Assembly: GCA_037447655.1 (NCBI GenBank)
Contig: JBBHKE010002798.1
Span: 17,249 to 81,248, forward strand
DNA length: 64,000 nucleotides
Source: Zygnema cylindricum
Taxonomy: Eukaryota; Streptophyta; Zygnematophyceae; Zygnematales; Zygnemataceae
Reading direction: 5' to 3'
Under the pieces are notes generated by a model. It was not told the origin of the DNA. It searched no databases and saw only the letters and a program-made list of their open reading frames with translations. Position numbers and translations under genes: made by a program. Positions within the stretch are counted from its first letter, which is position 1. Each line of letters opens with the position of its first letter. Below are positions 7,463 through 53,437 of this stretch, piece after piece.

Positions 7463-7464
7463 TA

Positions 7465-7480
7465 TGGGATCAAAGCTTTG
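7465..7480 (+). promoter_or_regulatory. Gypsy primer-binding site (probable tRNA-iMet 3' end)
   Basis: Two bases after the LTR comes TGGGATCAAAGC. Plant elements primed by the 3' end of initiator tRNA-Met usually carry TGGTATCAGAGC, so this is a 10 of 12 match. It is the only candidate at the expected place. Confidence 0.55.
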
Positions 7481-9736: not shown

Positions 9737-12700
9737 ATGATGACACCAGACAGTTTGATTAGATTCGAGTCATTAGTGGAAGGAAAACCGTTGAAAGTAA
9801 TGGTTGATTCAGGTGCCACACAAAATTTTATTTCACAAAAGCTTGTAGAGGAAAATAAAATTCCTACTGTCATAAGGGAAAAACCTTTACATGTTCAAGT
9901 GGCAAATGGTAATAAGTCCACATTAGACTTACAAACTGACACAATTGAAGTGGATATTCAGGGTCATAAAATGAAAGTTGTGTGTGAAATAATGAATTTA
10001 GGAAGTGAGGAACTAATTTTGGGAAAGCCTTGGTTAACAGAACATAATCCTCAAATTAATTGGGAAATTAACACCTTAAAAGTGAAGTCTGAAAACGGTT
10101 GGAAGGTTTTGCAAGCATTATCTCCTAAGAAATTGCATAGGAATCATATAAACAATATAACCAGATTAGGAGTGGAAGGTTTAATATCTGCTAAACAATT
10201 TAAAAAGCACTTAAAAGATAAAACAAATCATGCTTTCTTGTTGTTAGTAACTGAGGCAGTTACTGATGAAAGAGGGGGAGAAAACAATAACATTGATGTC
10301 ATCCCTAAATCAGACACCACTAAAACTTTTGAAAAACTAAAATATGATTTTGTAACTGACATTAATACATCTGATGTTGCTGTTAAAGATTTGATTTTTG
10401 AATTTCAAGATGTTTTTCCTAATGATTTACCCTCAGGAAGGCCACCTTCCCGAGATGTAGAACATGTTATTAACCTTGAACCTGGATGTAATCCTCCTGT
10501 CACAGGAATTTATAAGCACAGTTTCTTTGAGCAAGAGGAGTTAAAGAAACAGATCAAAGAACTCTTAGAGAAAGGACATATTCAGCCCAGCAAATCACCG
10601 TATGGAGCACCAGTTCTCTTTGTCAAAAAAAAGGACGGAACGTTGAGAATGTGTGTCGATTATCGTAGTCTGAACAAGATTACGGTGAAGGATAAGTATC
10701 CGTTACCTTTAATTTCTGATTTGATAGATCGTTTAAAAGGTGCTAAAGTATTTTCATTGATTGACCTGCGTAGTGGCTTTAATCAGGTGCCAATCAGAAT
10801 TGAGGATGTTGATAAAACTGCTTTCAGGACTAGGGTGGGTCATTTTGAATGGATAGTAATGCCATTCGGCTTAACGAATGCACCGCCTACTTACCAAAGA
10901 TTAATGAACCAAACTTTTTCTGATTACATAGATGAGTTTGTTCAGGTGTTTATTGATGATATTCTAATTTACAGTGAATCTAGAGAACAACATGTAATTC
11001 ATTTAAGAAAAGTGTTAGAAAGGTTAAAAGAAAGAAAATTATACGGAAAATTGTCAAAATCCAGCTTTCTTAAAAGTGAACAATTATTTTTGGGACATAT
11101 AGTTAGTGGGGAAGGTGTTAAAACAGATCCATCCAAAATCACTGCAATCCAAAGTTGGAAGCAACCTACTAATGTCACGGAAGTTAGATCATTTTTGGGA
11201 TTGGCCACTTACTACAGGAAATTTATAAAGAACTTCAGTATGATCGCTGCACCTTTGACGGATTTGCTTCGGGAAAAGGAGACGTTTGCGTGGGGAGCTG
11301 ATCAAGAGAGAGCATTCGAGGAACTAAAAGGGAAGTTGACCTCTGCTCCTACACTGGTGTATCCTGACCCTGCTGGGGAATTTGAAGTTCTGATTACTAC
11401 AGATGCATCTGACAAAGGTCTAGGTGCAGTCATAAGTCAAAAAGTCGGCAAACACTTTCATCCTATTGCTTTTGAGTCCAGAAAATTCAATGATGCTGAA
11501 AAGAACTATACAGCACAAGAAAAAGAATTACTTGCAATTGTACATGCATTGGTGAAATGGCGATGTTATTTGCATAATAAAGAATTTACAGTTCACTGTG
11601 ATAATAAAGCCCTTTCTTATTTGCAGAGATTAAGTGATGCACAGATTATGACTGGCAGACAGGTTAGGTGGATGCAAAAATTAGCATATTTCAAATTTAA
11701 TGTCAAACATATTCCTGGGAAGACAAATGTAGTTGCAGATCCTTTAAGTAGATGTTTTGAAATAAGTGTTATGGTTCAGGATGAATTGTTTTTAGATACT
11801 GTTAGAAATGGTTATGATAAAGATCCTTATTTTGCTGTGATTTGCAAAAATATTTCGGGAGGAAATTCTGACCCATTGAATGAGAGGCATGTCAAAAACT
11901 TTAGACTAGAGGCTGGTTTACTGTATTTGCAAATTGGGGATAGATTATGCATTCCTGAAGTCGGAGACTTAAGAAAACAAATTTTACGGGAAGCTCATGA
12001 GCATTTAGGACATCTAGGTCGAGATAAAACCCTTAGTCGGTTGCAAAGTAGATTGTTTTGGCCTGGGATGGCAAAAGAGGTGTCAAAACACGTAGAAAGT
12101 TGTGTCCCTTGCCAACAGAGTAAACCTAGTACCCAAAAACCTAAAGGTCTCTTAAAACCTTTGGATATTCCCGAAAGACCGTGGGAATCTGTCAGTATGG
12201 ATTTTATTGTTAGGTTGCCTGCTACATCTAAAAGGAATGACAGTATCATGGTCGTAGTCGATAGGTTCAGTAAAATGGCAATATTTATCCCTTGCAAAAC
12301 TACTCATTCAGTTGTAGATATTTCAAAGTTATATTTTGACAATGTGGTCAGACATCATGGAGTTCCCCTGTCTATAGTCAGTGATAGGGATTCTAAATTT
12401 ACATCTGCATTTTGGAAAGAATTGCAGCAAAATTTAGGTACTGAATTAAAAATGAGTACCTCTTACCATCCTCAGACAGATGGACAAACAGAAAGGATGA
12501 ATCGTACACTGGAAGAAATGCTTAGGACTATTTGCAGTGGAGTTCAAAACACATGGGAATCCAAACTGCCATTAATGGAATTTGCATACAATTCATGTAA
12601 ACATGCTAGTACAGGATTCTCACCATTTGAAGTTGCATACGGATACCAACCGAGAGAAGCATTAGACTTAATAACAGGGATCACACAAGAGAATAGGGGT

Positions 12701-13255
12701 TCAGGAACGGAATTTTGGGAATATATTCAAACAGTTTGGAGAACTGTCCGTGATGCATTAGTAGAGGCACAAAGGAGGCAAGAATTAAATGCTAACCGCA
12801 AACGGGGTGATTGGGTGTTACGCACAGGTGACAAGGTTTGGCTTTCTACAACTCATTACAGGTGCAAGATCGACGGACAATCGGATCCTACGGGGAAATT
12901 TGCTCCTAAGTTCATTGGACCATTTACTGTAATCGAGATGATATCGTCAGTTGCTGCCAAATTGCACTTTCCGGCGTCAACAAAAATTCATCCAGTGATA
13001 CACATTAGCCAATTGAAACCAGCGAATCTTCGACCAACCGAAGGAGAATTGGAATTGGATCCCTCAGTAATTATAGAACCTGAAGTACACAGATGGGTAA
13101 TAGATTGGGTTGGTCAACGGTTCAAGGTCGGAGATACTATATTCTGGCAAGTGCATTATCTAGGGAGGCCTGAGGATGAGTTGACTCTAGAGGATAAAAA
13201 TTCTGAATTTTTACAGAGGTATTGGAGAGACAATAATATAGAGGTCCCGTCTTGA
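9737..13255 (+). CDS. pol: Gypsy Pol polyprotein (PR-RT-RH-IN)
   Basis: 1,172 codons without interruption. Aspartic protease: VDSGAT near residue 24. Reverse transcriptase: [18 protein letters not shown] near 337, and the FIDD catalytic box near 404. RNase H: DASDKGLG near 555. Integrase: an HHCC zinc domain near 754-795 ([17 protein letters not shown]) and a DDE core with MDFIVRLP near 820, SDRDSKF near 882 and [10 protein letters not shown] near 918. The last 60 residues ([10 protein letters not shown]...[18 protein letters not shown]) look like a divergent chromodomain, which in chromoviruses steers integration to chromatin. All catalytic residues I can locate are kept, so the enzyme could be functional if translated. 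Confidence 0.95.
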
Positions 13256-13289
13256 GAATTAAAAATGTTTTAACTGAGGGCAGTTAAAA

Positions 13290-13304
13290 ATAAGGAGGGG
13301 ATGA
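13290..13304 (+). promoter_or_regulatory. Gypsy polypurine tract
   Basis: A purine-rich run (AAGGAGGGGATGA) directly abuts the 3' LTR. It would be the RNase H-resistant primer for plus-strand DNA synthesis. Confidence 0.85.
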
Positions 13305-14274
13305 TGTAACAGTAATAGCGGATCGAACTAATTTATAAAAGGGTATTTAGGAGTTATGATTATAGATTATTAAATTTGGTAGACGTTCGCGAAAGAATCA
13401 CGCGATTTGGAGTTATATTTCAAAAGTTATAGCTATGGGTGCACTTAGGTGGCAGTGTGGGGTCTAAATAACAGGTGGGTATCATTGAAACGGGTTAAGG
13501 GTCAAAATTAGTACCGAAATTTCGCGTGAACGTTTCATAAAGTTCTAATGAAACGTTCAGTATGCATGGTACTTCGTTTCGTACAATTTTTAGTACGAAA
13601 CGTCACTTTCACTTAAGGGAATTTCGTAGGAAGTTTCACGTGCGAAATTTGTGACGCATGATCGTGCGAAGTCGCGTTTCGTTTGGCGCGCGCTTTTGCA
13701 CGTAAATGTTACGTAGTGAAACGTAGCGTTTGATTGGTTAATAAAGTGCTAAGTAGTTAGTAAGAGATTTCGCACGTTTTTGCATTGGTCAGTCCGAGTC
13801 CTTGCTGATCAATGATTGGCCCAGGTAAAAGCCTGTTCAAACGGAGCTTTGACTCTGGCCTGGCGAGTCCAGGGCGATGATGGATAAATGGAGAAGTGTA
13901 AGAGGAGAGTAGACATCTTTTCCTTTGGGAAAAGTTTGTGGAAATTCCGGCTGATCTTGGTCCTGAGCGATTAATACCAAATTGGAGAAAAGGCATTTTG
14001 CATTGAAATCTCTTACTAACTAAATAGTGTTTTAGTAGTTAAGAGATAGAATTATTAAGAGTGGAGAGTAGTGGAAAACACTTTAAAAAGAAGGGTTGAG
14101 CCATGAGGGCAGGAGACCAAGCTAATGTTATGTGGACAGAAGCTTCTTCTAATTTAAAGTTTATCCTTATGTGAGTGTTGTCAAATGTGGATGTGTGTTT
14201 TCCAATGTGTGGAATGTGTGGTTGGAATTGTTTGTAGTAATGGGATTTTTTGAGAGGTAGGAGATCTTGTTACA
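13305..14274 (+). repeat. Gypsy 3' LTR
   Basis: 970 bp, starting TGTAACAGTAATAGCGG and ending CTTGTTACA. It matches the 5' LTR along its length, including the TATAAAAG box and the GAAACG/CGTTTC array. Confidence 0.93.
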
Positions 14275-31465: not shown

Positions 31466-31470
31466 TATAC

Positions 31471-32500
31471 TGCAATTCTGTGTCCTCCATTGGACTACAG
31501 AATACAGGAAGCCTCTAGATAGTGTTTAACTAACCCACTTTAAGCCACGACCACTTCTGCTCAAGAAGGCAAACTGACAATTTGACTGCACCCCTGTGCA
31601 GCCTGGACTCCCTTGAGTCCGCAGCAAAAAGAATCACTGAAAACGGCCAACCAGCCGATAAGTTATAGGGTGGCAAAGATGCCAATATATACAAACTCTC
31701 AGAGAGAGGACTATCTACCTAAATTTTCCTAAGTCCTAGTTTTTCCTACTTCCCTCTCACAGCTCCTATCTACTGTCTGTACGAACCAATCACAAAACTG
31801 TATAGTACAAGAAAGTACTACCGCCGATGTACTTTCTGTACGGCCTCTGTACGACAAAGCCATTAAGTGGACGCGTGTCCACTTTCCACTCGTCCGTACG
31901 TTCCTCGGAATTCCCGCGACCGAATGATGTCTTCCCATGTGGCGCCAGGTCATGCCACGTCACTAAATGCCAAAATGACCATTCCGGGATTTCGGTGATG
32001 ATGTGCGCCGTTAGATTTGACGTGAAATTCAATCTCGGCCGTAATAAATACTTGCGCGATATTTGTTTCGCTTTCGAAACAAAATGCGCGATATCCATTT
32101 CAAACAAGTACAGTACTTCGTATTTCGTAGAACTGTATCTATGTGTGGCGTTGAGGGTTTCAGTTAAATGAATCAAGTACATTACAATAGTTTAAATAAT
32201 AATGAAACCCTATATCTCCTAACGGACTTCTACGACAGACTGGTTAGAGCTAACGGCTATGCCGCGCTCTGCCGGTCGGGGGTTCGAGTCCTGCCGGACT
32301 CAACCTTTTGTTGAGAGTGGCTTAAGCCACTCTTTAGTCCTTTGAGGCAGCCATGGCTCCATTGCTCTCTCTCTCTCTCCTTCAGTGACAACAACAAGTA
32401 TGGGGGCGAGAGAGAGAGAAGAGATAGAGGCAGGCTGCCTACATTTTCTTTTCTAATAAATTTAGACCTAGAAAGTATATAAAAACTACTTATTTCAACA
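31471..32500 (-). repeat. Copia-1 3' LTR
   Basis: 1,030 bp. Holds the antisense tRNA-like/hairpin module at about 32225-32447 and an AGAGTGGCTTAAGCCACTCT palindrome near 32314-32333. Confidence 0.95.
32225..32447 (+). ncRNA. Candidate Pol III tRNA-like module, copia-1 3' LTR
   Basis: Plus strand, antisense to the element. An A-box-like TGGTTAGAGC (32241-32250) lies 40 bp before a perfect B-box GGTTCGAGTCC (32281-32291). Then follow a 20-bp palindrome, CT/GA arms that can pair around the conserved core TTCAGTGACAACAACAAG (32381 on), a short inverted repeat AGGCAG.CTGCCT, and TTTT at 32444. The acceptor arms do not pair, so this is not a tRNA gene. Whether it is transcribed is unknown. Confidence 0.5.
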
Positions 32501-32561
32501 CTCCCCTTATTTTCTAGTTATATTTTAATTTTTCTTTTAACCCGCATTTCTCCCGACAATA

Positions 32562-35500
32562 TTATAATTTAGGAGAGGGGACAGGTTTGGTCATCATGTC
32601 AGCCACCATTTCTTCATCAGGTCTATACACAAGATTTAAAATTTTATTTTCAACTTTTTCTCTTACGAAGCTTAATCTTATGTCCATATGTTTTGCTTTG
32701 AAATGATGTTTTGGATTGGCTGCGATTGCGATTGCAGCTTGATTATCGCAAAAGATTTCATGCACTCCCTCCTTCATATATCCCAGTTCTTGCAACAATG
32801 ACTTCACCCACATTAGTTCTTTCACAGCAGAACAAGACGCCATATACTCAGCCTCCATAGTAGACTGAGCAACCACCTTTTGTTGCTTACTGCTCCAACA
32901 ACAAGCACCTTCCCCAACATACAACACATACCTAGAAGTCCGTCGTCTCATAGGTGCGTCCCCATAACTGGCATCACTCCAAGTAGTGATGTCAGTGTGC
33001 TCCCCTCCCAAATGCAACCATAACTCTCTAGTTCCCACCAGATATCTCATGACTCTCTTGGCTGCCTCCCAATCCCTCTTCCTAGGATCATTAAGACTCC
33101 TACTGAGTACACCAACTGCCGCCGCTATGTCCGGCCTGGTACAATTCATAAAATAGATTAAGCTTCCTACGACCTGTCTATAAGGGATAGATTTCATGAA
33201 CTCTCTCTCTTCTGGACTCATCTGATCGTCTAAGATCATCACTCCTCTTTCTACACTCCCATCACTTACTTTTTTCAAGTCCATGGGAGTGGTACAACTG
33301 TTAGCATTTTCCATCTGGAATTTCTCAAGCATATTACCTATTGCTTCTTTCTGAGTAAGTCTGATAATCTTCTTCCCCCTATCTCTCTCCATTTGGATCC
33401 CCAAAATATATTTTGCCTCCCCTAAATCCTTCATATCAAATCTGCCCCTAAGATCTTTCTTTAGCCTATTGATATTCTCCAAAGACTTACTTAACACAAG
33501 CAGATCATCCACATAAATTGCAATAAAAATGACACCATTCTCATCTTCAAACATATAGATAGAATGGTCAGAGCTGATCCGGATGTATCCCAGATCGGTG
33601 AGAAACTCATCTAGTTTCTTATTCCACTGTCGGGGAGCCTGTTTCAGTCCATATAAGGACTTTATGAGCCTGCACACTTTGCTCTCTTCTCCTTCTTCCA
33701 CAAACCCCTCGGGTTGCCTCATAAAAATTTCTTCCTCTAACTCACCATTAAGAAAAGCAGTCTTAATGTCCATCTGGTGAATTTCCATGTCTTCCGCTGC
33801 GGCCAGACTGAGGAGAATCCTTACCGATGGGAACCGAACAACTGGAGCAAAGGTCTCCTCATAGTCAATCCCTTCTTTTTGGGTGAACCCCTTCGCTACC
33901 AATCGAGCCTTATACCTCTCAATTGTATAATCTGGGTTTAGTTTTAGTTTAAATACCCATTTACATCCAATAGGTTTTCTGTCTGGAGGGCAATCCGCTA
34001 GTTCCCAAGTATTTGCTTCCATGATAGAAGCCATCTCATCATTTATGGCTCTAATCCATCTTTCTTTCTCTGGACTATTCACTGCCTCTAAGTAAGACTG
34101 AGGCTCATCTGGGTGAGATAGCTTAGTTACCTTATGAGCAGCTTGTTTTTCCTGTATCCTTTTGCTGCTCCTTCTTCCTCCCTCAAACTCCGAAGCAGGA
34201 ATGGATGGAAGTCTTGGATTTCTTCTCACTGTCTCATCGGCTCCCCTGTCCATAAAAACCGTATCTTGTTCCGCTTCTTCCATCTCCTCGAAGTCCATAG
34301 GAGTATGTGAGGTTTCCGGTGAGTCTCCTGTATCTTCGATCTCCCCTGAATCTGTAATCACAGTTTCACTCATGTCTTTTTCGGGAACGACTGAGTTCTC
34401 CTCACTTTCGAACTCAAATCTGATCCTTATCTTCTTTGTATATTTGAAGGGGTCAAATGACTTCCCTTCATCCATGACAACTAAGTGTTTGACCAGAATG
34501 ATATCTTTCTTTGCTAAGTCATAGACTCTATATCCCTTAACATCCTCATCATATCCCACAAAGTATCCAGGTTTTCCCTTAGCATCTAGTTTCCAGTTTT
34601 TCCTATCTGTGTTAAGACTGTAAACTTGGCTACCAAATACTTTAAGGTGTGAGATATCTAGTTTCCTTCCAACCCATCTCTCATAAGGTGTCACTCCCTT
34701 TACAGCTGAGGTAAGGACTCTATTTTTAATATAGTTGGCACAGTTCATTGCCTCTGCCCAAAATCTCTTTCCTATTTTCTTGTCTGCCAACATACTGCAT
34801 GCACTATCTCCTAGTGTTCTATTCAACCTCTCAGCTACCCCATTTTGTTCTGGGTTATATGGTACAGTTTTCTGGTGTTGCACTCCCTCATCTCTCAGAT
34901 ATTCCTCAAATTGGTTAAAGGTATATTCTCCCCCATTATCACTCCTTATCCTCTTAATAGGGGTTTCATCCAATTTCTCACTCCATGCTTTATATTCTTT
35001 GAAGTAAGTTGATGCTTCAGACTTATTTTTCAGAAAGTAGACTCTAGAGTATCTAGACCAATCATCAGTTATTGTCATCATAAACCTCTTTCCTCCAACC
35101 GAAGGTACTTTTGCAGGTCCCCAAATGTCTGTGTGGACCAATTCTAACACTTTCTCACCTCTATATGTGGCGGCTTTGGGAAAGGGAAGTCTGTGAGCCT
35201 TACCTTGAGCACAACCACTACAATCATCCATCACTTCATTATCCCCAAATTGAATGCCATCTACTACCCCAAGCTTTTTTATTTCCCTTAACCTATCAAA
35301 ATGCACATGCCCCAACCGCTTATGCCAAATCATCACCTTAGGAACACCAACATAGTAAGCATTCTTCTTTTCATTACTCAAGTTAAGCCTAAACATTCCT
35401 TGGCTACCCTTATCTGCTGTAAAGTAAACTTCATCTCGATACTTAGCTGTAAAGACTCCCTTTCTAGTGAAAGTATCAAACTCTTTGTCATCTAACACAG

Positions 35501-36863
35501 ACGTAGAGACAAGATTTTTACTCAGCTGGGGAATGTAAAGTACATCTGAGAATGTAAGTATGGAAGTCTTACCCTCCACTAAGACTTTCAGATCTACTGA
35601 TCCCACTAGATCTGTAGTAACCACTCTCCCATCCCCATACTCTATCTCTACAGTAGGAATCTTTCTTAACTTAGTGAAGAGTTCTTTATCACGACACATA
35701 TGCATGGATGCACCTGAGTCGATGATCCATCCTTCCTGTGGAGCTTCCCGAATTGCTCCAAGGGCACACTTTTGCCTCCGAGGGATCTCCTTCTCCTCCT
35801 GACTCTCGTCAAGAAGAAGCTCCCCATCCTCCTCGGAGGACTCATCCTCGGTTTCTCCTGACACTTTTGTAACCACAAGTGCCTTTTTCTTCCCTCCGGA
35901 AGAACCTCCTCCACGGTTCTCTTGGAGCCTCAACTCTGATAGCTTGACACAATCTGCAATAAAGTGTCCCGACGTTTTGCAATAATGACAAAGACCCTTT
36001 GGGGGCCTCTGTCCCCCAGAATGATCTCTTTCCCCTCTATAAGGTTTCTTCGGGTCCTTCCCCCATCGGTCCCCTCCTGCTGCTAGAGCTTGAATGCTCT
36101 TTCCTCCTCTCCTAATCTCCATTGTGTTTTCCTGCACAAGTATCATCCTGACTACTGTGTTCCATTTCCATGAACTATCAGGCATTCCCTGTACTCGGTA
36201 CACTATGTTTTCAAACTCATCTGGTAATTTCATGATAAGGGTGTTAACTTTCATTTTCATTGTACCTGTCCACCCGGCACTTTCCATTTCCATATACAAA
36301 CAAGAAAGATCATTACAGTAATCTAACATCTTTCCTCCTTTGTAAGTGTAACTCAATAGCTTTTGCTCAGCCAACTGGAGCTCCTGAATAGTTCCAGCTC
36401 TATAAATCTCCACTAAACTCTCCCACAACTCCTCCGCCTTGTAAATGTGAAGATGAGGAGTGGCCAAACCTTGAGTGAGGTGCCTCAGAATGAAGTTCTT
36501 GGCAGCCATGTTTACATCCTCCCACATTTGAGTATCGTTCTCCACGGTCTTCACGGTCGCCGCTCCCGATACTGTGGCAATAGGAGTGAGGGGTGTCTCC
36601 TTCCCTTTTTCCTTTTCGGACACACTGCTGTCCCCATCATCTGCCTCCTCCGCTGAGGCAGCCGTTGTTGCAGAAAACCTTACTCCCCCAAATCCTGATG
36701 GAGTTCTCGAAGGTGGATGTTTCACTTGTCCACTCACGATACCCCAGCATCGTTTTTCACACAAAGCTCCCATCATCATGGCTTCCCAATAGATGAACCC
36801 AGATCCATTGAAGGTGGGCACCCTAGAGGGTGGGCCCATAACCTGCAATTCTGTGTCCTCCAT
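32562..36863 (-). CDS. Copia-1 Gag-Pol polyprotein
   Basis: 1,433 codons, no stop or shift. The ATG at 36863 lies 20 nt inside the 5' LTR, so the first residues (MEDTELQ) come from the LTR and the next (VMGPPSR) from the primer-binding site. Gag: UBN2-type capsid region, about residues 10-260. Zinc knuckle CHYCKTSGHFIADC near 292-305. Aspartic protease DSGAS near 382. Integrase: HKRLGH..C..C zinc domain near 515-552, catalytic Asp in HTDIWGP near 574, SDNGGEY near 637, and Glu in NGVAERLNR near 676. RT: CKWVFKLK near 960 and YVDDLLVLSK near 1116. RNase H: SDASYGD near 1298. No Gag-Pol frameshift exists, as is usual for copia elements. Confidence 0.97.
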   Translation of the reverse strand: MEDTELQVMGPPSRVPTFNGSGFIYWEAMMMGALCEKRCWGIVSGQVKHPPSRTPSGFGGVRFSATTAASAEEADDGDSSVSEKEKGKETPLTPIATVSGAATVKTVENDTQMWEDVNMAAKNFILRHLTQGLATPHLHIYKAEELWESLVEIYRAGTIQELQLAEQKLLSYTYKGGKMLDYCNDLSCLYMEMESAGWTGTMKMKVNTLIMKLPDEFENIVYRVQGMPDSSWKWNTVVRMILVQENTMEIRRGGKSIQALAAGGDRWGKDPKKPYRGERDHSGGQRPPKGLCHYCKTSGHFIADCVKLSELRLQENRGGGSSGGKKKALVVTKVSGETEDESSEEDGELLLDESQEEKEIPRRQKCALGAIREAPQEGWIIDSGASMHMCRDKELFTKLRKIPTVEIEYGDGRVVTTDLVGSVDLKVLVEGKTSILTFSDVLYIPQLSKNLVSTSVLDDKEFDTFTRKGVFTAKYRDEVYFTADKGSQGMFRLNLSNEKKNAYYVGVPKVMIWHKRLGHVHFDRLREIKKLGVVDGIQFGDNEVMDDCSGCAQGKAHRLPFPKAATYRGEKVLELVHTDIWGPAKVPSVGGKRFMMTITDDWSRYSRVYFLKNKSEASTYFKEYKAWSEKLDETPIKRIRSDNGGEYTFNQFEEYLRDEGVQHQKTVPYNPEQNGVAERLNRTLGDSACSMLADKKIGKRFWAEAMNCANYIKNRVLTSAVKGVTPYERWVGRKLDISHLKVFGSQVYSLNTDRKNWKLDAKGKPGYFVGYDEDVKGYRVYDLAKKDIILVKHLVVMDEGKSFDPFKYTKKIRIRFEFESEENSVVPEKDMSETVITDSGEIEDTGDSPETSHTPMDFEEMEEAEQDTVFMDRGADETVRRNPRLPSIPASEFEGGRRSSKRIQEKQAAHKVTKLSHPDEPQSYLEAVNSPEKERWIRAINDEMASIMEANTWELADCPPDRKPIGCKWVFKLKLNPDYTIERYKARLVAKGFTQKEGIDYEETFAPVVRFPSVRILLSLAAAEDMEIHQMDIKTAFLNGELEEEIFMRQPEGFVEEGEESKVCRLIKSLYGLKQAPRQWNKKLDEFLTDLGYIRISSDHSIYMFEDENGVIFIAIYVDDLLVLSKSLENINRLKKDLRGRFDMKDLGEAKYILGIQMERDRGKKIIRLTQKEAIGNMLEKFQMENANSCTTPMDLKKVSDGSVERGVMILDDQMSPEEREFMKSIPYRQVVGSLIYFMNCTRPDIAAAVGVLSRSLNDPRKRDWEAAKRVMRYLVGTRELWLHLGGEHTDITTWSDASYGDAPMRRRTSRYVLYVGEGACCWSSKQQKVVAQSTMEAEYMASCSAVKELMWVKSLLQELGYMKEGVHEIFCDNQAAIAIAANPKHHFKAKHMDIRLSFVREKVENKILNLVYRPDEEMVADMMTKPVPSPKL
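36829..36843 (-). promoter_or_regulatory. Copia-1 primer-binding site, half tRNA-iMet type
   Basis: Directly after the 5' LTR the element reads GGTTATGGGCCCACC. This is complementary to the anticodon stem-loop of plant initiator tRNA-Met (GGTGGGCCCATAACC), not to any tRNA 3' end. Drosophila copia and some algal and protist copia elements are known to prime from a cleaved 5' half of this tRNA. The same 15 bases precede the LTR in copia-4 (53423-53437) and at 41225-41239. Confidence 0.85.
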
Positions 36864-37873
36864 TGGACTACAGAATACAGGAAGCCTCTAGATAGTGTTT
36901 AACTAACCCACTTTAAGCCACGACCACTTCTGCCCAAGAAGGCAAACTGACAATTTGACTGCACCCCTGTGCAGCCTGGACTCCCCTGAGTCCGCAGCAA
37001 AAAGAATCACTGAAAACGGCCAACCAGTCGATAAGTTATAGGGTGGCAAAGATGCCAATTTATACAAACTCTCAGAGAGAGGACTATCTACCTAAATTTT
37101 CCTAAGTCCTAGTTTTTCCTACTTCCCTCTCACAGCTCCTATCTACTGCGTGTACGAACCAATCACAAAACTGTATAGTAGAAGAAAGTACTACCGCCGA
37201 TGTACTTTCTGTACGGCCTCTGTACGACAAAGCCATTAAGTGGACGCGTGTCCACTTTCCACTCGTCCGTACGTTCCTCGGAATTCCCGCGACCGAATGA
37301 TGTCTTCCCATGTGGCGCCAGGTCATGCCACGTCACTAAATGCCAAAATGACCATTCCGGGATTTCGGTGATGATGTGCGCCGTTAGATTTGACGTGAAA
37401 TTCAATCTCGGCCGTAATAAATACTTGCGCGATATTTGTTTCGCTTTCGAAACAAAATGCGCGATATCCATTTCAAACAAGTACAGAACTTCGTATTTCG
37501 TAGAACTGTATCTATGTGTGGCGTTAAGGGTTTCAGTTAAATGAATCTAGTACATTACAATAGTTTAAATAATAATGAAACCCTATATCTCCTAACGGAC
37601 TTCTACGACAGACTGGTTAGAGCTAACGGCTATGCCGCGCTCTGCCGGTCGGGGGTTCGAGTCCTGCCGGACTCAACCTTTTGTTGAGAGTGGCTTAAGC
37701 CACTCTTTAGTCCTTTGAGGCAGCCATGGCTCCATTGCTCTCTCTCTCTCTCCTTCAGTGACTACAACAAGTATGGGGGCGAGAGAGAGAGAAGAGATAG
37801 AGGCAGGCTGCCTACATTTTCTTTTTTAATAAATTTAGACATAGAAAATATATAAAAACTACTTATTTCAACA
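36844..37873 (-). repeat. Copia-1 5' LTR (promoter copy)
   Basis: 1,030 bp. A TATAAAT box in element sense lies at about 37064-37058. A run of GTAC palindromes and a CCAAT box (37150-37270) lies upstream of it. The start codon of the polyprotein is at its downstream end. Confidence 0.93.
37598..37827 (+). ncRNA. Candidate Pol III tRNA-like module, copia-1 5' LTR
   Basis: Same module as in the other LTR. The B-box is at 37654-37664, the conserved 28-bp core at 37753-37780, and T4/T6 runs at 37817-37827. If active here, the RNA would run antisense across the upstream part (U3) of the copia promoter. Confidence 0.5.
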
Positions 37874-38133
37874 TATACCGTACCAAAATATCAGTTGTCA
37901 GTAGGTAAAAACAAAGTACATGTTGGTTATCGGCAAATAGCTACTAATACACAACGTTAATTTTTAGGATTCTTGTTTTTTTCTCATGAGGAAATAGCGT
38001 TGCGAAGTAGAGTGCGACGGAAGTCAGTTGCCAAAAAAAGTGTGACGAAAGAGAGTTGACTTTTGGATTTTCGGTTGGATTTTAGAATGGTACATATCAT
38101 ATGCAAATTTTGAGTCCATTGTGACATGTATCG
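37874..38133. other. Host spacer between copia-1 and solo LTR
   Basis: 260 bp. No ORF or repeat recognised. Confidence 0.5.
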
Positions 38134-39309
38134 TGTTGTTATTTGTGTATTTTCTAGGTTTGTAATAGGATAGAAAAGGGCAGAGGCAGTCTGCCTCTAA
38201 CTCCCCTCTCCAAGCCCCCACACTTGTTGTAGTCACTGAAAGTTGGATAGGGAGCTAGAGTCATGGCTGCCTAAGCTCTCTAGAGAAGACAGGGGGTAAA
38301 TTAGGTAGACTTACCAAAAGTTGGTTGACGGACCCAGGAATTAATCCTGATACCTGCCCTCCGTTAATCACCCATAGCCGGTAGCTTTATTAGTTTAGCG
38401 CTAGTATTCAGACGTATAGGGTTTGATAATTATTTATTTAGTTACACGTAGACTTGTTCATTTAACTGAAAATATATACGTAGTGCATAGATACAGTTAT
38501 AAATAGTACGGAGTACGGTTTAATGTATATGAAACGGATAGCGACATTTGTTTCGAACGCGAAACAAATACCGCGCGCGTATTTATGACGGCTAGGATCG
38601 AAAACTTGTTTTGATCGGACGGTCGAAAAAGGATGCGGAGATCGTGGAAGAAGATTTCGGCGGTTTGGGGTCATCGCCACATAGGATGACACGTGGCAAA
38701 ATGATATTGGATCGCGCCATCTCCGAGGATTACGTGAAAGAATCTCGAGATGACGTGTGTCAAAATTTTGGCCATGTCGTACAATGGCCATACATAAAGT
38801 ACACCGACACCTGTACTTTTCTGTACGACACAGTAATTTGATTGGTGCCGTACTTCAGTAGATAGAGTTTTAGAGGGATATAGGACTTAGAATAATTTGG
38901 CAGATAGGACCCTCTCTCTGAGAGGGCACCTTATATAAATGACTAACTTTGGGCAGCCATAGATATCAATTTACTTGACCATTTTCAGTGATTCTTTTTG
39001 TTGTGGCCTCAGGGGAGTCCACACTACACAGAGGTGTAGTCGGTCAGAGTTTTTGTCTACCAGGGTGGTTCCATTTTTAAGGGAAAGTCAAAGTGGGTGA
39101 ATGTGTCCAAATCTCATATTCTAACTTTGCATTCTGTGGTAGAACTAAGCACACAGAAAGTGTTATTTCACAGGGGTGAATCTATATTGGGGTTATGACT
39201 GTCAAGGGGTCAGCCATTTGGGTTTATATAAACTTGGAGTGGGCTCTTTCTAGATTAGTTTCTTTTGGATCTGCATACTCTGAGGGCCAATGGAGGTCTC
39301 AGAGTTTCA
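38134..39309 (+). mobile_element. Solo copia LTR, opposite orientation
   Basis: 1,176 bp beginning TGTTGTTATTTGTG and ending GAGTTTCA, flanked on both sides by TATCG (38129-38133, 39310-39314). The flanking duplication and the absence of internal sequence show a solo LTR left by LTR-LTR recombination. It is related to the LTR at 41240-42631 rather than to copia-1. The tRNA-like/hairpin module is on the minus strand, again antisense to the LTR. Confidence 0.9.
38174..38395 (-). ncRNA. tRNA-like module in the solo LTR
   Basis: Minus-strand reading: AAGCTACCGGCTAT, then a T-arm-like hairpin CAGG-ATTAATT-CCTG enclosed by ACGGA/TCCGT, then the conserved core (38214-38241), GAGGCAGACTGCCTC, and TTTT at 38177-38174. 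The B-box-like element is GGATTAATTCC (38347-38337). Confidence 0.45.
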
Positions 39310-39389: not shown

Positions 39390-40190
39390 TGCAATTCTGT
39401 GTCCTCCATTGGACTCCATAATTCGAAAGCCCATAGATAACTTTTAACTAACCCACTTTCAGCCACAACCACTGCTGCCCAAGAGGATAAATTGACAGTT
39501 GACTGCACCCCTATGCAGCGTGGACTTGGTCCGTAGCAAAAAAGAATCATTGAAAATGACAAACTTGCCAATTAGTTATGAGGTGGCAAAGATGCCAAGT
39601 ATATACAAAACTTTATAAGGGAGAGAGGTCCCTACCGACCAAATTCTCTAAGTCCTAAGCCCCTTTCACAACCCCTATCTTCTGATGTACGAACCAATCA
39701 AACGACTGTAGAGTAGAATAAAGGTACTACGGCTGGTGTACTTTCTGTACGGCATGTGTAAGACAAGGCCATTAAGTGGACGCGTGTCCACTTTTAACTC
39801 GTCCTTCTGTTCTCCGGAATTCCAATTACCGAGTGTTATCTCTCCACGTGTCGCCAGGTCACGCCACGTCCAAAAACCGTCCAGGTGACCATTCCGGGAT
39901 TTTGGTAGCAATATGTGCCGTCGGATCATAAACCGGCATTGAATATTGGTCGTTGAAACACATGTCCGATTAATTTGTTTCGTGCGAGATAATGTTCGCA
40001 CTATATATTACTTAGTTCTATGTTCTTTCATTTGTCATTCCGTTAATCAGACTGAGGATCAAAACACAATTTAAATAAATATCCCACCCTATGTATGTTA
40101 ACGAACTCCTATGACAAACCGGTTAGAGCTGACGGCTACGCCTCGCTCTGCCGGTAGGAGGTTCGAGTCCTGCCGCACTCAACCCCCTTC
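39390..40190 (-). repeat. Truncated copia-1-type LTR
   Basis: Starts TGCAATTCTGTGTCCTCC like copia-1 and follows it to the tRNA-like segment (GGTTAGAGCT at 40131, perfect B-box GGTTCGAGTCC at 40160-40170). It then breaks off before the conserved 28-bp core. No primer-binding site precedes it, so it has lost its own element. Confidence 0.8.
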
Positions 40191-40199
40191 TTCCTCATC

Positions 40200-41265
40200 A
40201 TCCACATTCTAACTTCTAAGTTCTTCCAAACAAGGGCATTTGCCTACAAAAAAAGCAAACCCATTTTTTCAAAGCTCCCCTTTCTTTTCCTCTCCCTATC
40301 TTTCCACCAAAGTTTTGATAAAGTTTACCTTTGTCATTCTTCCTCTCATCACGCGTCCGCCAGTCACCATCACTCCTCTTATCACGCTTCCGCTTGTCAC
40401 CGCCATTCCTCTTATCACGCTTCCGCAAGCCACCACCGACTGTTAGTGCATTCACCCTGTCATTTCCCTTCGAAACTCCAAGGTGTTTTCCCTCACAAGA
40501 ATCATCCCCATGGTAATACTCCAATTCCATGAGGAGCCATCCATTTCATGCATACGATTAATGATATTTTCGTACTCATCTGGGAGTTTTATAATTAGTG
40601 TGTTAATCTTTCTCTCCTCAAATTCTACATACCCTGCACTAGCAAGCTCAATATATAACACAACAATATCATTGCAAAACACTATCATGCTATCGCCTTT
40701 ATAAACATAAGCCTCTATCTCTTGTTTTACTAACTGCTGCCTCTGTATAGTCTCACTCTTATAAATTTGAATTAGTGTTTCCCAAATTTCTGAAGACTTG
40801 GTTAGATTTTTAAGAGTGATAGCTATAGACTTAGACAAGTATCTAAGTATGAGATGTTTTGCTATAGTGTTTTTGTTTTCCCATTTTTCTATCATTTTCT
40901 TCAGTTTTTGGTTTAGTTATAACCCCTACAAGTGAAACTGTAGCCGAGAGCCTAGCTCTCCTTACCATAGGTGTTCCTTTTCCCTTCTCCCCTTTTCCCT
41001 CTTCCATGGCAATGATTTTCCCTTCACCTTCCGTTGCATCTGAAATGCGGTTAATTTCTTGGAAAGCTTCAGATGAATCTCCATGGTGAGTTCCACCAAA
41101 GCTGGGTGGCGGACACCTCACTTGTCCCGAAACAACTCCCCACAAGTGCTTTTCGAAAAGCAATCCCTCCATCGTAAACTCCCAATAAGTGAAGTTTGTT
41201 CCATCAAACAAAGGATCCCTAGATGGTGGGCCCATAACCAAAAATTCTATGGGCTCCATTGCCAC
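40200..41265 (-). pseudogene. Copia gag fragment (copia-2)
   Basis: Minus-strand gag with the ATG at 41265 inside the adjacent LTR, then VMGPPSR from the primer-binding site and FDGTNFTYWEFTMEGLLFEK. Frames break near 40870 and 40490. The last part is Arg/Lys/Gly-rich and ends at CFFC, half of a zinc knuckle, where the fragment joins the truncated LTR. No protease or later domains follow. Confidence 0.8.
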
Positions 41266-42631
41266 ACAGAATTCGCAGATCCTAAGAAGCTAATCTAGAT
41301 AGTGTAGACTCTAAGTTTATATAAACCTAAATGATTGACCCCTTGACTATCAAAACCGCATTAAAGCTTCACCCCTGTGAAATAAGACTTTCTGTGTGCT
41401 CAGTTCCACCACAGAATGAAAAGTTAGAATATGAGATTTGGACACATTCACCCACTTTGACTTTCCCTTAGAAGTGCAGCCACCCTGGCAGGCAGACACT
41501 TTGACCGACTACACTCCTGTGTAGCCTGGACTTCCTTGAGTCCGCAGCAAAAAGAATCACTTAAAATGGTCAAGTAAAATGATAGTTATGGCTGACCAAA
41601 ATTTGCCTTTTATACAAGATGCTCTCTGGGAGAGGCGGCTACCTACCAAAAATATTATAAATTCTAAAACCTACTCACAGCGCTTATAGACCAATAAAAT
41701 TGCAGCACACTGCATAATGTACATTCAAAGTACGGTAGCCGCCATACTTTTTGTACAAAAATATTCGGCACCACTCATGGTCTGCCACGTGGCTAATAAA
41801 TCGTCGCTGTTCTGTCATTTTTTTTCTATGGGCATCCTATAGGATGTTGCCGCGTGTCATTTTGACTTGCCGAACTAAAGTCTGTTGAGCGTTGAATTTC
41901 AACGGTTGTCGTTGCTCGTTGACCGTTGAAATCCGCGTCAACATAGAACCAGTTGAAGTATGGACCAATCATATCTGTACCGTACAAGAAAGTACACGTG
42001 CCGGAGTACAATCTGTACGACCAATATATGACAGCGTCATATTGTGACATTTGTCACATCCGGATTTGTCATCTCGCGTTCCAAAAATCCCGCAATCCTG
42101 CTAGAACTTGCCACGTGTCATCTGACATGGCGGTGCCCGAAAACGCCACGTCGCCCACTCCGAAATCCCGGCTCGCACCACATGCGTCGATTCAGATCAA
42201 ATATTCCATCCGGACCGTCGAAATGAAATGTCGTTTGTTAATTCCGTGCGCTCCGAATTACGTGCGGTCTAATTCTTTTCCGTGTATATTCCTTCCGTAT
42301 TTTGTTAGATGAAAGATACTACTTGGTAATGTTTATACCTTTATCATACCCTATATAATCTTGCACTAGTCCTAGACTATAGGATAAAGCCAACGACTAT
42401 TTGAGATTTGACAGACGACATGTACCAGGATCAAATCCTGGGTCTGTCAAATCTCATTTTGGTAAATCTACCAATTTCAACACATATCTCTCTACAAGGC
42501 ATAGGCAGCCATGGTTCTAGCTCCCTGTTTAGCCTTCAGTGACTCTAACAAGAGCGGGGGCATAGAGGACTTAGAGGCAGACTGCCTCTGCCTTTTGATT
42601 TAGATCTAGAAAATACACAAATATCAACAAC
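41240..42631 (-). repeat. Copia-2 5' LTR
   Basis: About 1,392 bp. In element sense it begins TGTTGATATTTGTG (42631) and ends near CATAGAATTTTT, where the terminal CA has mutated. Directly next to it is the half-tRNA primer-binding site at 41225-41239. It contains the tRNA-like/hairpin module. Confidence 0.8.
42370..42596 (+). ncRNA. tRNA-like module in copia-2 LTR, with 14-bp stem
   Basis: GGATAAAGCCAACGACTAT is followed by a perfect 14-bp stem (42403-42416 with 42442-42455), enclosing a T-arm-like hairpin CCAGG-ATCAAAT-CCTGG. Then come the conserved core (42534-42561), GAGGCAGACTGCCTC, and TTTT at 42593-42596. The long stem is shared only weakly by the other LTRs. Confidence 0.5.
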
Positions 42632-47936: not shown

Positions 47937-49103
47937 TGCAATCCTATGTCCTCCATTGGACCACAGAATACAGGAAGCCTCTAGATAGTATTTAACTAAC
48001 CCACTTCAAGCCACAACCACTGCTGTCCAGGAAGGCAAAATGACAGTTTGACTGCACCCCTATGCAGCTTGGACTCCCCTGAGTCGGTAGCAAAAAGAAT
48101 CACCGAAAACGGCCAAACAGCCGATAAGTTACGAGGCAGTAAAAATGCCAATTTGTACAAACTCTCAAAGAGAGAGGTGACTACCTACCAAAATTTTCTA
48201 TGTCCTGATTCCCTCTAATAACTTCTATCTACTGAAGTACGGACCAATCAGATTACTGTACCGTACCAAAAAGTACTATTGCCGATGTACCTTTTGTACG
48301 GCCTAGTTACGACAAGGCCATTAAGCGGACCCGTGTCTCTCTAATCACTTCTATCTACTGAAGTACGGACCAATCAGATTACTGTACCGTACCAAAAAGT
48401 ACTACTACCGATGTACCTTTTGTACGGCCTATGTACGACAAGGCCATTAAGCGGACGCGTGTCTCCTTTTCATTCGTCCGTACATTCCTCGGAATTCCTA
48501 TGACTGAATGTCATCTTTCCACGTGGCTCCAGGTCATGCCACGTCACAAAACACCAAAGTGACCACTCCGAAATTTCGGCGATGATGTGCACCGTTGGAT
48601 TCACACCGAGACGCAATCTTAGCCGTTATAAATACTTGCGCGATATTTGTTTCGTTGTCAAAACAAAATGCGTGGTATTCGTTTTGAAAAAGTGTCGTAC
48701 ATCGTACTTTCATAAAACTGTATCTATGCAAGCCGTATACACTTTTAGTTAAATGAATTTGTTCCTCCTTATAGATATATATATATATCTATCACATACT
48801 ATAGCATTTAGCATTAGTCCTAGTCTACTAGGATAAATCTGACCGCTATCGGCCAACCTTGATGAACAGAAGGTACCGGGATCAAATCCCGGGTGCGTTA
48901 GGCATATTTTTAGTAGCCTACTAAAAATAACTGTTTGTTGAACTAAGGGAGCGATGGATCAACCACCCTCTCTATCCTTCAGTGACTACAACAAGTATGG
49001 GGGCTAGAGAGAGGAGGTGGAGGCAGGCTGTCCGTCCTTTTTTTTCTTTTATACTAACCTATTTAAACCTAGAAAATACTCTAAAAATCTATTATTTTCA
49101 ACA
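47937..49103 (-). repeat. Copia-4 3' LTR with 126-bp internal duplication
   Basis: TGCAATCC...TTTTCAACA. The duplicated block begins ACTTCTATCTACTGAAGTACGG at 48221 and again at 48347 and covers the GTAC/CCAAT promoter-like part. The other LTR has one copy. Confidence 0.9.
48830..49045 (+). ncRNA. tRNA-like module, copia-4 3' LTR, T8 terminator
   Basis: An anticodon-arm-like stem ACCTT (48856-48860)/AAGGT (48870-48874), then a T-arm CCGGG-ATCAAAT-CCCGG (48876-48892) with B-box-like GGATCAAATCC. The conserved core is at 48977-49004, and a run of eight T at 49038-49045 would be a strong Pol III terminator. Confidence 0.5.
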
Positions 49104-49116
49104 CTCCCATTATTTT

Positions 49117-52100
49117 CTAGTCTAATTTTATTTTTTCTTTCAACCGGCATTTTTCCCTACAATATTTTAATTTAGGAGAGGGCACAGGTTTGGTCATCAT
49201 GTCAGCCACCATTTCTTCACCAAGTCTATGCACAAGATTTAAAATTTTATTTTCAACTTTTTCTCTTACGAAACTTAATCTTATGTCCATATGTTTTGCT
49301 TTGAAATGGTGTTTTGGATTGGCTGCAATTGCGATTGCAGCTTGATTATCGCAAAATATTTCATGGACTCCCTCCTTCATATATCTCAGTTCTTGCAACA
49401 ATGACTTCACCCACAATAGTTCTTTTACAGCAGAACAAGATGCCATATACTCACCCTCCATAGTAGACTGAGCAACCACCTTTTGTTGCTTACTGCTCCA
49501 ACAGCAAGCACCTTCCCCCACATACAAAACATATCCAGAAGTGCATCTTCTCATAGGTGCATCCCCATAACTGGCATCACTCCAAGTGGTGATATCAGTG
49601 TGCTCCCCTCCCAAATGCAACCATAATTCTCTGGTTCCAACCAGATATCTCATGACTCTCTTGGCTGCCTCCCAGTCTCTCTTTCTAGGATCATTAAGAC
49701 TCCTACTGAGTACTCCAAGTGCTGCCGCTATGTCCGGCCTGGTACAGTTCATAAAGTAGATTAAACTTCCTAGGACTTGTCTATAAGGGATAGACTTCAT
49801 AAACTCTCTCTCCTCTAGACTCATCTGATAGTCTAAGATCATCACTCCTCCTTCTACACTCCCATCACTTACTTTTTTCAAGTCCATGGGAGTAGAACAA
49901 CTATTAGCATTTCCATCTGGAATTTCTCAAGCATATTACCTATTGCTTCTTTTTGAGTAAGTCTCATAATCTTCTTCCCCTTGTCTCTCTCCATTTGGAT
50001 CCCCAAAATATATTTTGCCTCCCCTAAATCCTTCATATCATATCTTTCCCTAAGATCTTTCTTCAGCCTATTGATCTTCTCCAAACACTTACTCAACACA
50101 AGCAGATCATCCACATAAATTGCAATAAAATGACGCCATTCTCATCTTCAAACATATAGATAGAATGGTCAGAGCTGATCCGAATATATCCCAGATCGGT
50201 GAAAAACTCATATAGTTTCTTATTCTACTGTTGGGGAGACTGCTTTTAGTCCATATAAGGATTTTATGAGACTGCAGACTTTGCTCTCTTCTCCTTCTTC
50301 CACAAACCCCTCGGGTTGCCTCATAAAAATTTCTCCCTCTAACTCACCATTGTAAAAAGTTGTCTTAATGTCCATTTGGTGGATTTCCATGTCTTCCGCT
50401 GCTGCCTGGCTGAGGAGAATCCTTACTGAGGGGAACCAAACAACTGGAGCAAAGGTCTCCTCTTAGTTAATCCCCTCCTTTTGAGTGAACCCCTTTGCTA
50501 CCAATCGAGCCTTATATCTCTAAATGGTATTATCTAAGTTCAGTTTTAGTTTAAATACCCATTTACACCCAATAGGTTTTCTGTCTGAGGACAATCCGCT
50601 AATTCCCAAGTATTTGCTTCCATGATAGAAGCCATCTCATCATTTATGGCTCTAATCCATATTTCTTTCTGTGGACTATTCACTGCCGCAGAGTAAGACT
50701 GAGGCTTATCTGGGTGAGATAACTTAGTTACCTTATGAGCAGTTTGTTTTTCCTGTATCCTTTTGCTGCTCCTTCTTCCTCCCTCAAACTCTGAAGCTGG
50801 AATGGATGGAAGTCTTGGATTTCTTCTCACTGTCTCATCGGCTCCCTTGTCCATGGAAGCCGGTTCTTGTCCCGCTTCTTCTATCTCCTCGAAGTCCATA
50901 TGAGTATGTGAGGTTTTCGGTGATTCTCCTATATCTTGGATCTCCCCTGAATCTGCAATCACGGTTTCACTCATGTCCATTTCGGGAACGACCGAGTCCT
51001 CCTCACTGTCGGACTCAGATCTGATTTTTATCTTCTTTGTATATTTGAAGGGGTCAAATGACTTCCCTTCATCCATGACAACTAAGTGTTTGACCAGAAT
51101 TATAACTTTCTTTGCTATGTCATAGACTCTATATCTTTTAACATCCTCATCATATCCCACAAAGTATCCAGGTTTTCCCTTAGCATCTAGTTTGAAGTTT
51201 TTCCTTTCCGTGTCAAGACTGTAAACTTGGCTACCGCATACTTTATGGTGTGAGATATCTGGTTTCCCTCCAACCCATCTCTTATAAGGTGTCACTCCCT
51301 TTATAGCTAAGGTAAGGACTCTATTCTTAATGTAGTTGGCATAATTCATTGCTTCTGCCCAAAATCTCTTTCCTAATTTCTTGTTTGCCAACATACTGCA
51401 TGCACTATCTCCTACTGTTTGATTCAACCTCTCTGCTACCCCATTTTGTTCCGGGTTATATGGTACAATTTTTTGGTGCTGTAATCCCTCATCTCTCAGA
51501 TATTCTTCAAACTGGTTAGAGGTATATTCCCCCCCATTATCAATCCTTATCCTCTTAATGGGGGTTTCATGCAACTTCTCACTCTATGCTTTATATTCTT
51601 TGAAGTAAGTTGATGCTTCAGACTTTTTTTTCAGAAAGTAGATTATACAGTATCTAGACCAGTCATTGGTTATTGTCGTCATAAACCTCTTTCCTCCAAC
51701 CGAAGGTAGTTTTGCTGGTCCCCAAATATCTGTGTGGACCAAGTTTAACACTTTGTCACCTCTATATGTGGCGACTTTGGGAAAGGGAAGTCCGTGAGCC
51801 TTACCTTGAGCACAACCACTACAATCATCCATCATTTTATTATCCCCAAACTGAATGCCTTCTACTATCCCAAGCTTTTTCATTTCCCTCAACCTATCAA
51901 AATGCACATGCTTCAACCGCTTATGCCAAATCATCAACTTAGGAACACCAACATAATAAGCATTCTTCTTTTCATTACTCAGGTTAAGCCTAACCATTCT
52001 TTCGCTACCCTTATTTGCCGTGAAGTAAACTTCATCCCCATAATTAGCTGTAAAGACTCCTTTTCTAGTGAAGGTATCAAACTCCTTGTCATCTAGCACA

Positions 52101-53400
52101 GACGTAGAGACAACATTTTTACTCAGCTGAGGAATGTATTGTACATCTGAGAATGTAAGTATAGATGTCTTACCCTCCACTAAGACTTTCAGATCTACTG
52201 ATCCCACTAGATTTGTAATAACCACTCCTCATCCCCATACTCTATTTCTACAGTAGGGATCTTTCTTAGCTTAGTGAATTGTTCTTTATCACGACACATA
52301 TGCATGGATGCACCTGAGTCGATAATCCATCCTTCCTGTTGAGCTTCTCGAATCGCTCCAAGGGCACACTTCTGTTTTCGAGGGATCTCCTTCTCCTAGG
52401 ATCTCGTCAAGATGAAGCTCCCCATCCTCCTCAGAGGACTCATCCTCGGTTTCTCGTGTCACTTTTGTAGCCACAAGTGCCTTTTTCTTCCCTCCGGAAG
52501 AACCCCCTCCACGGTTTTGTTGGAGCCTCAGCTCTGATAGCTTGACACAATCTGCGTTGAAGTGTCCTGGCTTTTTGCAAAAATGACAAAGACACTTTGG
52601 AGGCCTCGGCCCCCCAGAATGATTTTTTTCCCCTTTGTAAGGTTTCTTCGGGTCTTTCCCCCATTGGTCCCCTCATGCTGCTAGAGCTTGAATGCTCTTC
52701 CCTCCTCTTCTTATCTCCATTGTGTTTTCCTGCACAAGGATCCTGACCACTGTGTTCCATTTCCATGAACTATCTGGCATTTCCTATACTCGATACACTA
52801 TGTTCTCAAATTCATCAGGTAACTTCATGATAAGAGTGTTAACTTTCATTTTCATTGTATCTGTCCACCCGGCACTTTCCATCTCCATATACAAACAAGA
52901 AAGATCATTACAGTAATCTAACATATTTCCTCCTTTGTAAGTGTAACTCACTAGCTTTTGCTCAGCCAACTGGAGCTCCTGAATAGTTCCAGCTCTATAA
53001 ATCTCCACCAAACTCACCCATAATCCCTCGGCCTTGTAAATGTGAAGATGAGGAGTGGCCAAAGCTTGATTGAGGTGATTGAGAATAAAGTTCTTGGCAG
53101 CCTTGTTTACATCCTCCCACATTTGAGTATCGTTCTCTACGGTCTTCACGATCACCGCTCCCCCTACTGTGGCAATAGGAGTTAGGGTGTCTCTTTCCCT
53201 TTCCTTTTTTCGGACACACTGCTGTCCCCATCATCTGCCTCCTCCGCTGAGGCAGCCGTTGCTGCAGGAAACATTACTCTTCCAAATCCTGGTGGAGTTC
53301 TCGAAGGTGGACGTTTCACTTGTCCACTAACGATACCCCATTATCGTTTTTTGCACAAAGCTCCAATCATCATGGCTTCCCAATAGATGAACCCAGATCC
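49117..53400 (-). pseudogene. Copia-4 gag-pol, multiply broken
   Basis: From 53400 downward: gag (53155-52784 is a clean block), zinc-knuckle region near 52560 with a frameshift, protease DSGAS near 52320, pre-integrase and integrase (52225-51584, 51574-50546), RT with altered YVDD region near 50110, and RNase H plus C-terminus (49887-49117) intact. At least six frame breaks or stops separate the blocks. Sequence stays very close to copia-1, so inactivation followed a recent common source. Confidence 0.92.
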
Positions 53401-53437
53401 ATTGAAAGTGGGCACCCTAGAGGGTGGGCCCATAACC

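Follow-up and report, generated by a model that had tools for sequence, protein, structure and literature searches.

We asked whether the LTRs of a copia lineage in Zygnema cylindricum carry a tRNA-type small-RNA gene in the style of Pol III that lies antisense to the element, as an initial annotation had proposed from a 64-kb stretch of DNA (the window). The reference element, copia-1, is a Ty1/copia element of 6.4 kb that is read on the minus strand, as indicated by its PPT AAGGGGAG, which adjoins the 3' LTR (Table 1). Its two LTRs are 98.4% identical (blastn, 3' vs 5' LTR), and a single frame, whose initial codons fall within the LTR, covers the Gag, integrase and RT domains (Pfam). The PBS next to the 5' LTR is of the half-tRNA type and matches the anticodon arm of what we take to be the tRNA-iMet sequence. 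Half-tRNA-Met PBSs have also been described in Osser, Bryco and part of Gymco-II (PMC6317226), and this type gives no more than a hint of an algal, bryophyte or gymnosperm host. Among the best 120 of 7921 matches, the copia-1 protein resembled distant plant, algal, oomycete and other proteins, the closest over the whole stretch being 65% identical. Relatives of this protein were not found in viral contigs, nor was the core of the large LTR hairpin described below found in viral contigs or in genome contigs of bacteria and archaea, all of them collections where one would not expect a plant-type element.

Table 1. Features of copia-1, the related LTRs and the antisense module (positions in the window)
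Feature	Position	Strand	Remarks
copia-1	31471-37873	-	Ty1/copia element
copia-1 3' LTR	31471-32500	-	TSD TATAC at 31466-31470 and 37874-37878; blastn, edges
copia-1 5' LTR	36844-37873	-	PBS adjoining; blastn, edges, TSD
copia-1 open frame, 1440 aa stop to stop	32562-36884	-	ORF list, Pfam
A-box-like stretch, copia-1 3' LTR	32231-32250	+	37604-37623 in 5' LTR; best upstream A-box score 6/9
B box GGTTCGAGTCC in T-arm, copia-1 3' LTR	32281-32291	+	37654-37664 in 5' LTR; 10/10 consensus positions
First T4 run, candidate proximal terminator, copia-1 3' LTR	32306-32309	+	
Small hairpin HP2 (AGAGTGGC/GCCACTCT), copia-1 3' LTR	32314-32333	+	fold z -5.10 for 32303-32336
Large hairpin HP3, copia-1 3' LTR	32345-32440	+	28-nt core 32380-32407; fold z -5.85 for 32337-32447
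Inverted-repeat arms, copia-1 3' LTR	32345-32352, 32433-32440		AGGCAGCC and GGCTGCCT, respectively
Distal T-runs (T4, C, T4), copia-1 3' LTR	32444-32452	+	T4 at 32444-32447 and 32449-32452
Inverted solo LTR	38134-39309		own TSD TATCG; carries relative of module
Module, inverted solo LTR	38174-38403	-	B-box position 38347-38337, T4 38319-38316, core 38242-38214, T4 38177-38174
Short LTR	39390-40274		carries tRNA-like part of module
A-box-like stretch and B box, short LTR	40110-40170	+	without HP2, HP3 or T-run near B box
Module, copia-2 LTR	42373-42596	+	B box 42428, T4 42457, core 42534-42561, T4 42593
copia-4	47937-54466		TSD AGATG; carries relative of module in both LTRs
Module, copia-4 3' LTR	48821-49050	+	B box 48879, T5 48907, core 48977-49004, T8 49038
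Module, copia-4 5' LTR	54183-54413	+	B box 54241, T5 54269, core 54339-54366, T4 54400

Several further features of the window were recorded. A gag-like remnant (40473-40766, 66% to copia-1) lies between a short-type and a copia-2-type LTR, and because two unlike LTRs flank it, the stretch 39390-42628 looks chimeric or fused and not like one insertion. The 3' LTR of copia-4 holds an internal tandem duplication at 48203-48465 (spacing 126 nt, 137-nt copies 92% alike), of which the 5' LTR has a single copy. A Ty3-type element at 6691-14274 has open Gag (8226-9515) and Pol (9734-13255) frames and repeats that are 97-98% alike, and its insertion is probably recent. A kinase frame matched only kinases among the 120 of 336 matches listed, and the stretch 62667-62854 is a degenerate tandem repeat whose unit is 21 nt long.

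An antisense module in the U3 of seven LTRs

The module lies in U3, antisense to the element, in seven LTRs of the window, namely the two of copia-1, the two of copia-4, one copia-2 LTR, the inverted solo LTR and the short LTR. These seven copies represent five kinds, all from one 64-kb window. At the same place in each, an A-box-like stretch is followed, 50-58 nt on, by a B-box position within a T-arm. The order described initially (A-box-like stretch, T-arm with B box, hairpins, T-run), together with its antisense orientation, was borne out in all six complete LTRs. The orientation flips with the solo LTR, which is inverted and has a TSD of its own, so the unit belongs to the LTR, as had been argued. 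Likewise, the 28-nt core is common to the complete LTRs; a 24-base core pattern had six matches in the window, none of them outside these LTRs, whereas 100 shuffles gave a mean of 0.00. On these sequence comparisons, the module is confirmed as a real feature of the LTRs. Parts of the first description needed amendment. The copy at 39390 has only the tRNA-like part and is without the two distal hairpins, but it does not look cut, as the word 'truncated' had implied, and the LTR sequence continues up to GGGGAG at 40275-40280. The inverted repeat AGGCAG..CTGCCT is present, but two of its six pairs are broken in each copia-4 LTR.

Boxes, T-arm and T-runs

The B boxes were compared with the presumed consensus GWTCRANNC, and the motifs of the scan below are consensus forms presumed in the same way. 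The B box, noted before as perfect in copia-1, is so, and it is canonical in the short LTR too. It is non-canonical in the other LTRs: the sequence in copia-4 and copia-2, GGATCAAATCC, still agrees with GWTCRANNC, and the B-box position of the solo LTR, GGATTAATTCC, does not, a key C being lost. The best A-box scores upstream were 8 and 7 of 9 in copia-4, 6 in copia-1, copia-2 and the short LTR, and 5 in the solo LTR; the putative A-box matches outside copia-4 are modest. Both strands of the 64 kb were scanned for a B box (10 positions), an A box (9 positions, best in a zone upstream) and a T-stem (5 positions), with a scoring scheme devised after the module had been seen. The top six sites were six of the seven module copies. 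These six sites, which come from related and not independent copies, scored at least 20, as compared with a mean of 0.7 such sites in 20 shuffles. The solo LTR site scored 18, which is background, as shuffles average 25 sites at that level.

The T-arm has a 5-bp stem and a 7-nt loop. Its alignment (7 rows, 46 ungapped columns) contains 12 invariant columns, 7 of which fall within the 11 B-box columns (p 0.003). In the T-stem 28 of 30 cells are paired, and 5 of 500 shuffles pair equally well. One pair changes between C-G, U-G and G-C, and another between A-U, G-C and G-U; 223 of 500 shuffles have at least as many pairs (2) with two-sided changes. When the stem was slid by +1 column, the covariation score was higher (0.587 vs 0.493) and the paired cells were fewer (80%). 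A candidate outer helix below the T-arm was rejected: both helices together were paired in 80% of 80 cells (11 of 500 shuffles as good), helix 1 alone was 72% paired, and the number of two-sided pairs was unremarkable (380 of 500 shuffles). In the copia-2 fold, the strand 3' of the T-stem is paired to the stretch immediately before that stem and not to the 5' end. ARAGORN (bacterial code) reported no tRNA genes in the window, and Rfam gave no tRNA family even among weak matches and no family at gathering score there. By these models, the tRNA-like part of the module is not a tRNA.

In tRNA genes, a T-run lies a few nt beyond the mature 3' end. The same arrangement was found in six of the seven LTRs, where a T4-T5 run begins 25-29 nt downstream of the first B-box base (the short LTR is without it); as background, 5-12% of LTR positions have a T-run in the slot from +20 to +32. 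The next T4 run in those six LTRs follows at +159 to +170. The initial annotation had placed the T-run after the large hairpin, and the distal T4-T8 runs are indeed there, but it had overlooked the earlier one. Because the T4-T5 run stands about where a tRNA gene stops, the first product, if read by Pol III, would be roughly tRNA-sized, and a 230-nt RNA would be read-through. As far as sequence can tell, the proposal of a tRNA-type, Pol III-style antisense unit belonging to the LTR thus stands, whereas the proposed product of 180-230 nt would be preceded by a tRNA-sized candidate.

Hairpins, strand preference and cassette history

HP2 keeps its place in copia-1, copia-4 and copia-2, with unrelated stem sequences, and the solo LTR folds differently there. 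In HP3, a stem of variable, CT/GA-rich sequence surrounds the nearly fixed 28-nt core. The conserved part is the loop and not the stem, in which HP3 is unlike a miRNA gene. Its weak Rfam matches were MIR473 with 29 bits (gathering score 52) and mir-4716 with 24-25 bits (76). Of the 33 pairs in the HP3 consensus, 5 show two-sided changes. Several cells are broken and the net covariation term is +0.2, so that the fold earns no credit for covariation from the consensus program. The copia-1 module as a whole folds far beyond shuffles (z -9.1).

HP3 was more stable on the antisense strand in all five copies run, by 3.4-7.8 kcal/mol (the copia-1 3' LTR, near-identical to the 5' LTR, was left out), while 87 control windows taken from these LTRs on average favoured sense, by 4.3 kcal/mol (sd 5.0). 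The strand evidence other than HP3 stability is mixed. Two U-G pairs of HP3, present in all six rows, become A-C if read in sense. Consensus HP3 energies were close (-33.6 antisense vs -32.2 sense). For whole modules, the antisense energy was lower in five of six and the antisense z-score better in three of six; the T-arm region was more stable antisense in four copies and sense in two. A strand test on G-U vs A-C gave 9 vs 4 for HP1, leaning antisense, although the numbers are small and the related copies are not independent. With a Watson-Crick-only skeleton, the test gave 9 vs 3 for HP3 and 1 vs 1 for HP1, the copia-1 5' LTR being outside these totals.

The LTR leaders have structures of their own. 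At about 31580-31645 and at the equivalent LTR places, two small hairpins downstream of the TATA box (GGACTC..GAGTCC, CTGCAC..GTGCAG) were seen by eye; their stems differ among copies, are mostly still paired, and may be packaging signals. Downstream of its TATA box, the solo leader (38952-38995) contains GGCAGCCAT..TTTCAGTGA at a spacing of 31, and the same words occur in antisense HP3 (38229-38271) at a spacing of 30. It looks as though a piece of this leader was duplicated in inverted orientation; the likeness is weaker in copia-2, and copia-1 and copia-4 have the second word only.

Conservation of the cassette against the LTR body was compared in three LTR pairs within the 64-kb window. 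The cassette was the better conserved between copia-1 and the short LTR (83% vs 70% of columns) and between the copia-4 5' LTR and the solo LTR (64% vs 47%). Between copia-1 and copia-4, the cassettes agreed in 41-47% of columns vs 78% for the LTR body, and the internal stretch compared in 92%. The cassette tree groups copia-1 with the short LTR, and copia-4 with copia-2 and the solo LTR (100/100), and a clade of copia-1 and copia-4 was rejected (p 5e-6). The LTR-body tree does not separate copia-1, copia-4 and the short LTR, with an AU p of 0.417 against a copia-1 and copia-4 clade. A cassette swap between lineages was considered for the copia-1/copia-4 difference and rejected, as there is no branching conflict between the trees. 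Only branch lengths disagree, and the sequences suggest that on a single branch the cassette was either replaced or underwent very rapid evolution, which its boxes survived.

Possible origin, role and known parallels

At close to an even chance, we favour the explanation that an old tRNA-derived antisense Pol III unit has been retained in the U3 of an autonomous copia lineage; its transcription, the ends and lengths of its RNAs, and their role are what we infer. A tRNA-derived (SINE-like) internal Pol III promoter would sit antisense in U3 and would have persisted there. With TFIIIC bound to both boxes, Pol III would initiate just upstream of the A box, heading to the LTR 5' end. Most transcripts would end at the T4-T5 run that closely follows the T-arm, giving RNAs of roughly 80-110 nt that are tRNA-like but no tRNA, and a minor share would read through the two hairpins to the distal T4-T8, at about 230 nt. 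Most likely, its product would act as a small, structured RNA that is complementary to the U3 of genomic RNA and tempers or protects the element; as an alternative within this role, TFIIIC binding itself may form a boundary. The fuller claim is that of an autonomous copia with its own antisense U3 Pol III gene, whose two staged terminators would yield a short tRNA-like RNA and a read-through hairpin RNA complementary to U3, controlling or shielding the element. We put this forward tentatively, and regard it as somewhat doubtful.

The same features might be remnants of a tRNA-derived SINE that landed antisense in an ancestral LTR and has since been copied without present function. The module has the SINE order of a tRNA-type head, an unrelated body and a T-rich end (A box, B box, body and short T-rich end in tRNA-derived plant SINEs), it has no cloverleaf match, and the solo B box has decayed. 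However, no target-site repeat flanks the module in the four copies tested, where the longest common word of 6 nt is at shuffle level (an old repeat could have decayed). Within the window, the core is confined to LTRs and is not found free, and the place and orientation of the module in the LTR are fixed, in which it differs from plant SINEs. Stems that still pair and a nearly fixed core are also unexpected for a passive remnant. Thus, we consider it unlikely that the module is such a remnant, even though SINE insertion into an LTR has been proposed as the origin of Helenus (Kojima 2024, PMC10886601).

The hairpins could instead belong to the sense strand and serve packaging, stability or 5'-3' leader contact as part of the U3 of the 3' LTR in genomic RNA. 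The HP3 core could pair in part with a leader motif, TTTCAGTGATTC, the solo leader repeats the two words at 38952 and 38983 with nearly the HP3 spacing, whole-module z-scores are about equal on both strands, and the T-arm region is better in sense in two of six copies. Yet HP3 is more stable antisense wherever it was run, its two constant U-G pairs would become A-C, and the B-box consensus and T-run spacing would be left unexplained. Leader-U3 pairing for genome circularisation was rejected, as the leader motif varies among LTRs and the core side does not change to match. A sense-strand structure is therefore, in our view, rather improbable. On a chance account, the LTRs would simply be AT-rich and contain some inverted repeats, and their B-box match would be shared through descent alone. 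The copies are related, and GWTCRANNC is short, with three further antisense matches elsewhere in the short and solo LTRs; nevertheless, the six top scan sites, the T-stem pairing, the core pattern that shuffles do not reproduce and the fold of the copia-1 module make this account very improbable.

As for the retained antisense unit, we know of no such Pol III unit outside retroviruses and TRIMs, and no autonomous copia with a tRNA-type unit in antisense was found in the literature searched, which lacks most subscription journals. Helenus/TRIMp3 is alike in having a tRNA-like sequence with A and B boxes within its LTRs (PMC10886601), and the copia LTRs have such boxes too, with a modest A box and, in the solo LTR, a decayed B box. 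Most tRNA-like parts of Helenus are not functional tRNAs, and fungal ones seem to ride on Copia (Kojima 2024, PMC10886601). In contrast to copia-1, with its 6.4 kb and 1440-aa frame, Helenus elements are gene-less TRIMs of 311-1263 bp (PMC10886601). In the passages of that paper on Helenus, the tRNA part is taken as the element's promoter, with the strand not spelt out, whereas the copia unit points against the coding strand; by its orientation, antisense in seven of seven LTRs, it would not be the promoter of the element's own genomic RNA. There it is also argued that Pol II is obligatory for autonomous partners, which would hardly have long LTR stretches in common with TRIMp3 (PMC10886601). 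Cassandra similarly has plant LTRs with a small-RNA gene, Pol III promoter and terminator (PMC7215508, PMC10886601). However, it is of the 5S rRNA type, non-autonomous and transcribed from the 5' LTR to the 3' LTR (PMC10886601), whereas the present unit is of tRNA type, antisense and in an autonomous copia; no 5S rRNA-like sequence was found in the LTRs, Rfam giving no family at gathering score in the window.

Like the module, the Pol III miRNA cassettes of foamy viruses and BLV belong to a coding retroelement and combine Pol III promoter and terminator signals with stable hairpins (PMC7104284, PMC6950176, PMC5807749); in the copia LTRs these signals and hairpins are sequence features only. 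Foamy-virus hairpin cassettes sit in the LTR U3, and A/B boxes are reported for the simian ones (PMC7104284, PMC6950176). The retroviral cassettes differ in their predicted dumbbell precursors of 111-128 nt and in host and element, which are unrelated to the copia case, and the word 'antisense' is absent from the main text of the foamy-virus papers (PMC7104284, PMC6950176). Because tRNA-like LTRs in Helenus (PMC10886601) and U3 Pol III hairpin RNAs in foamy viruses (PMC7104284, PMC6950176) are already in print, the novelty is narrower than had been claimed; judged by sequence, the new aspects would be the autonomous copia and the antisense orientation of its unit.

The retained unit predicts two sizes of antisense RNA, roughly 80-110 nt and 230 nt, with U-run ends. 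Because solo LTRs would carry the unit too, the module could mislead small-RNA annotation. So far, LTR small-RNA promoters have been linked to tiny gene-less elements, and U3 Pol III hairpin cassettes to animal retroviruses. If true, the copia unit would represent a third, independent use, with a retroelement in which a different polymerase transcribes each strand of the same LTR.
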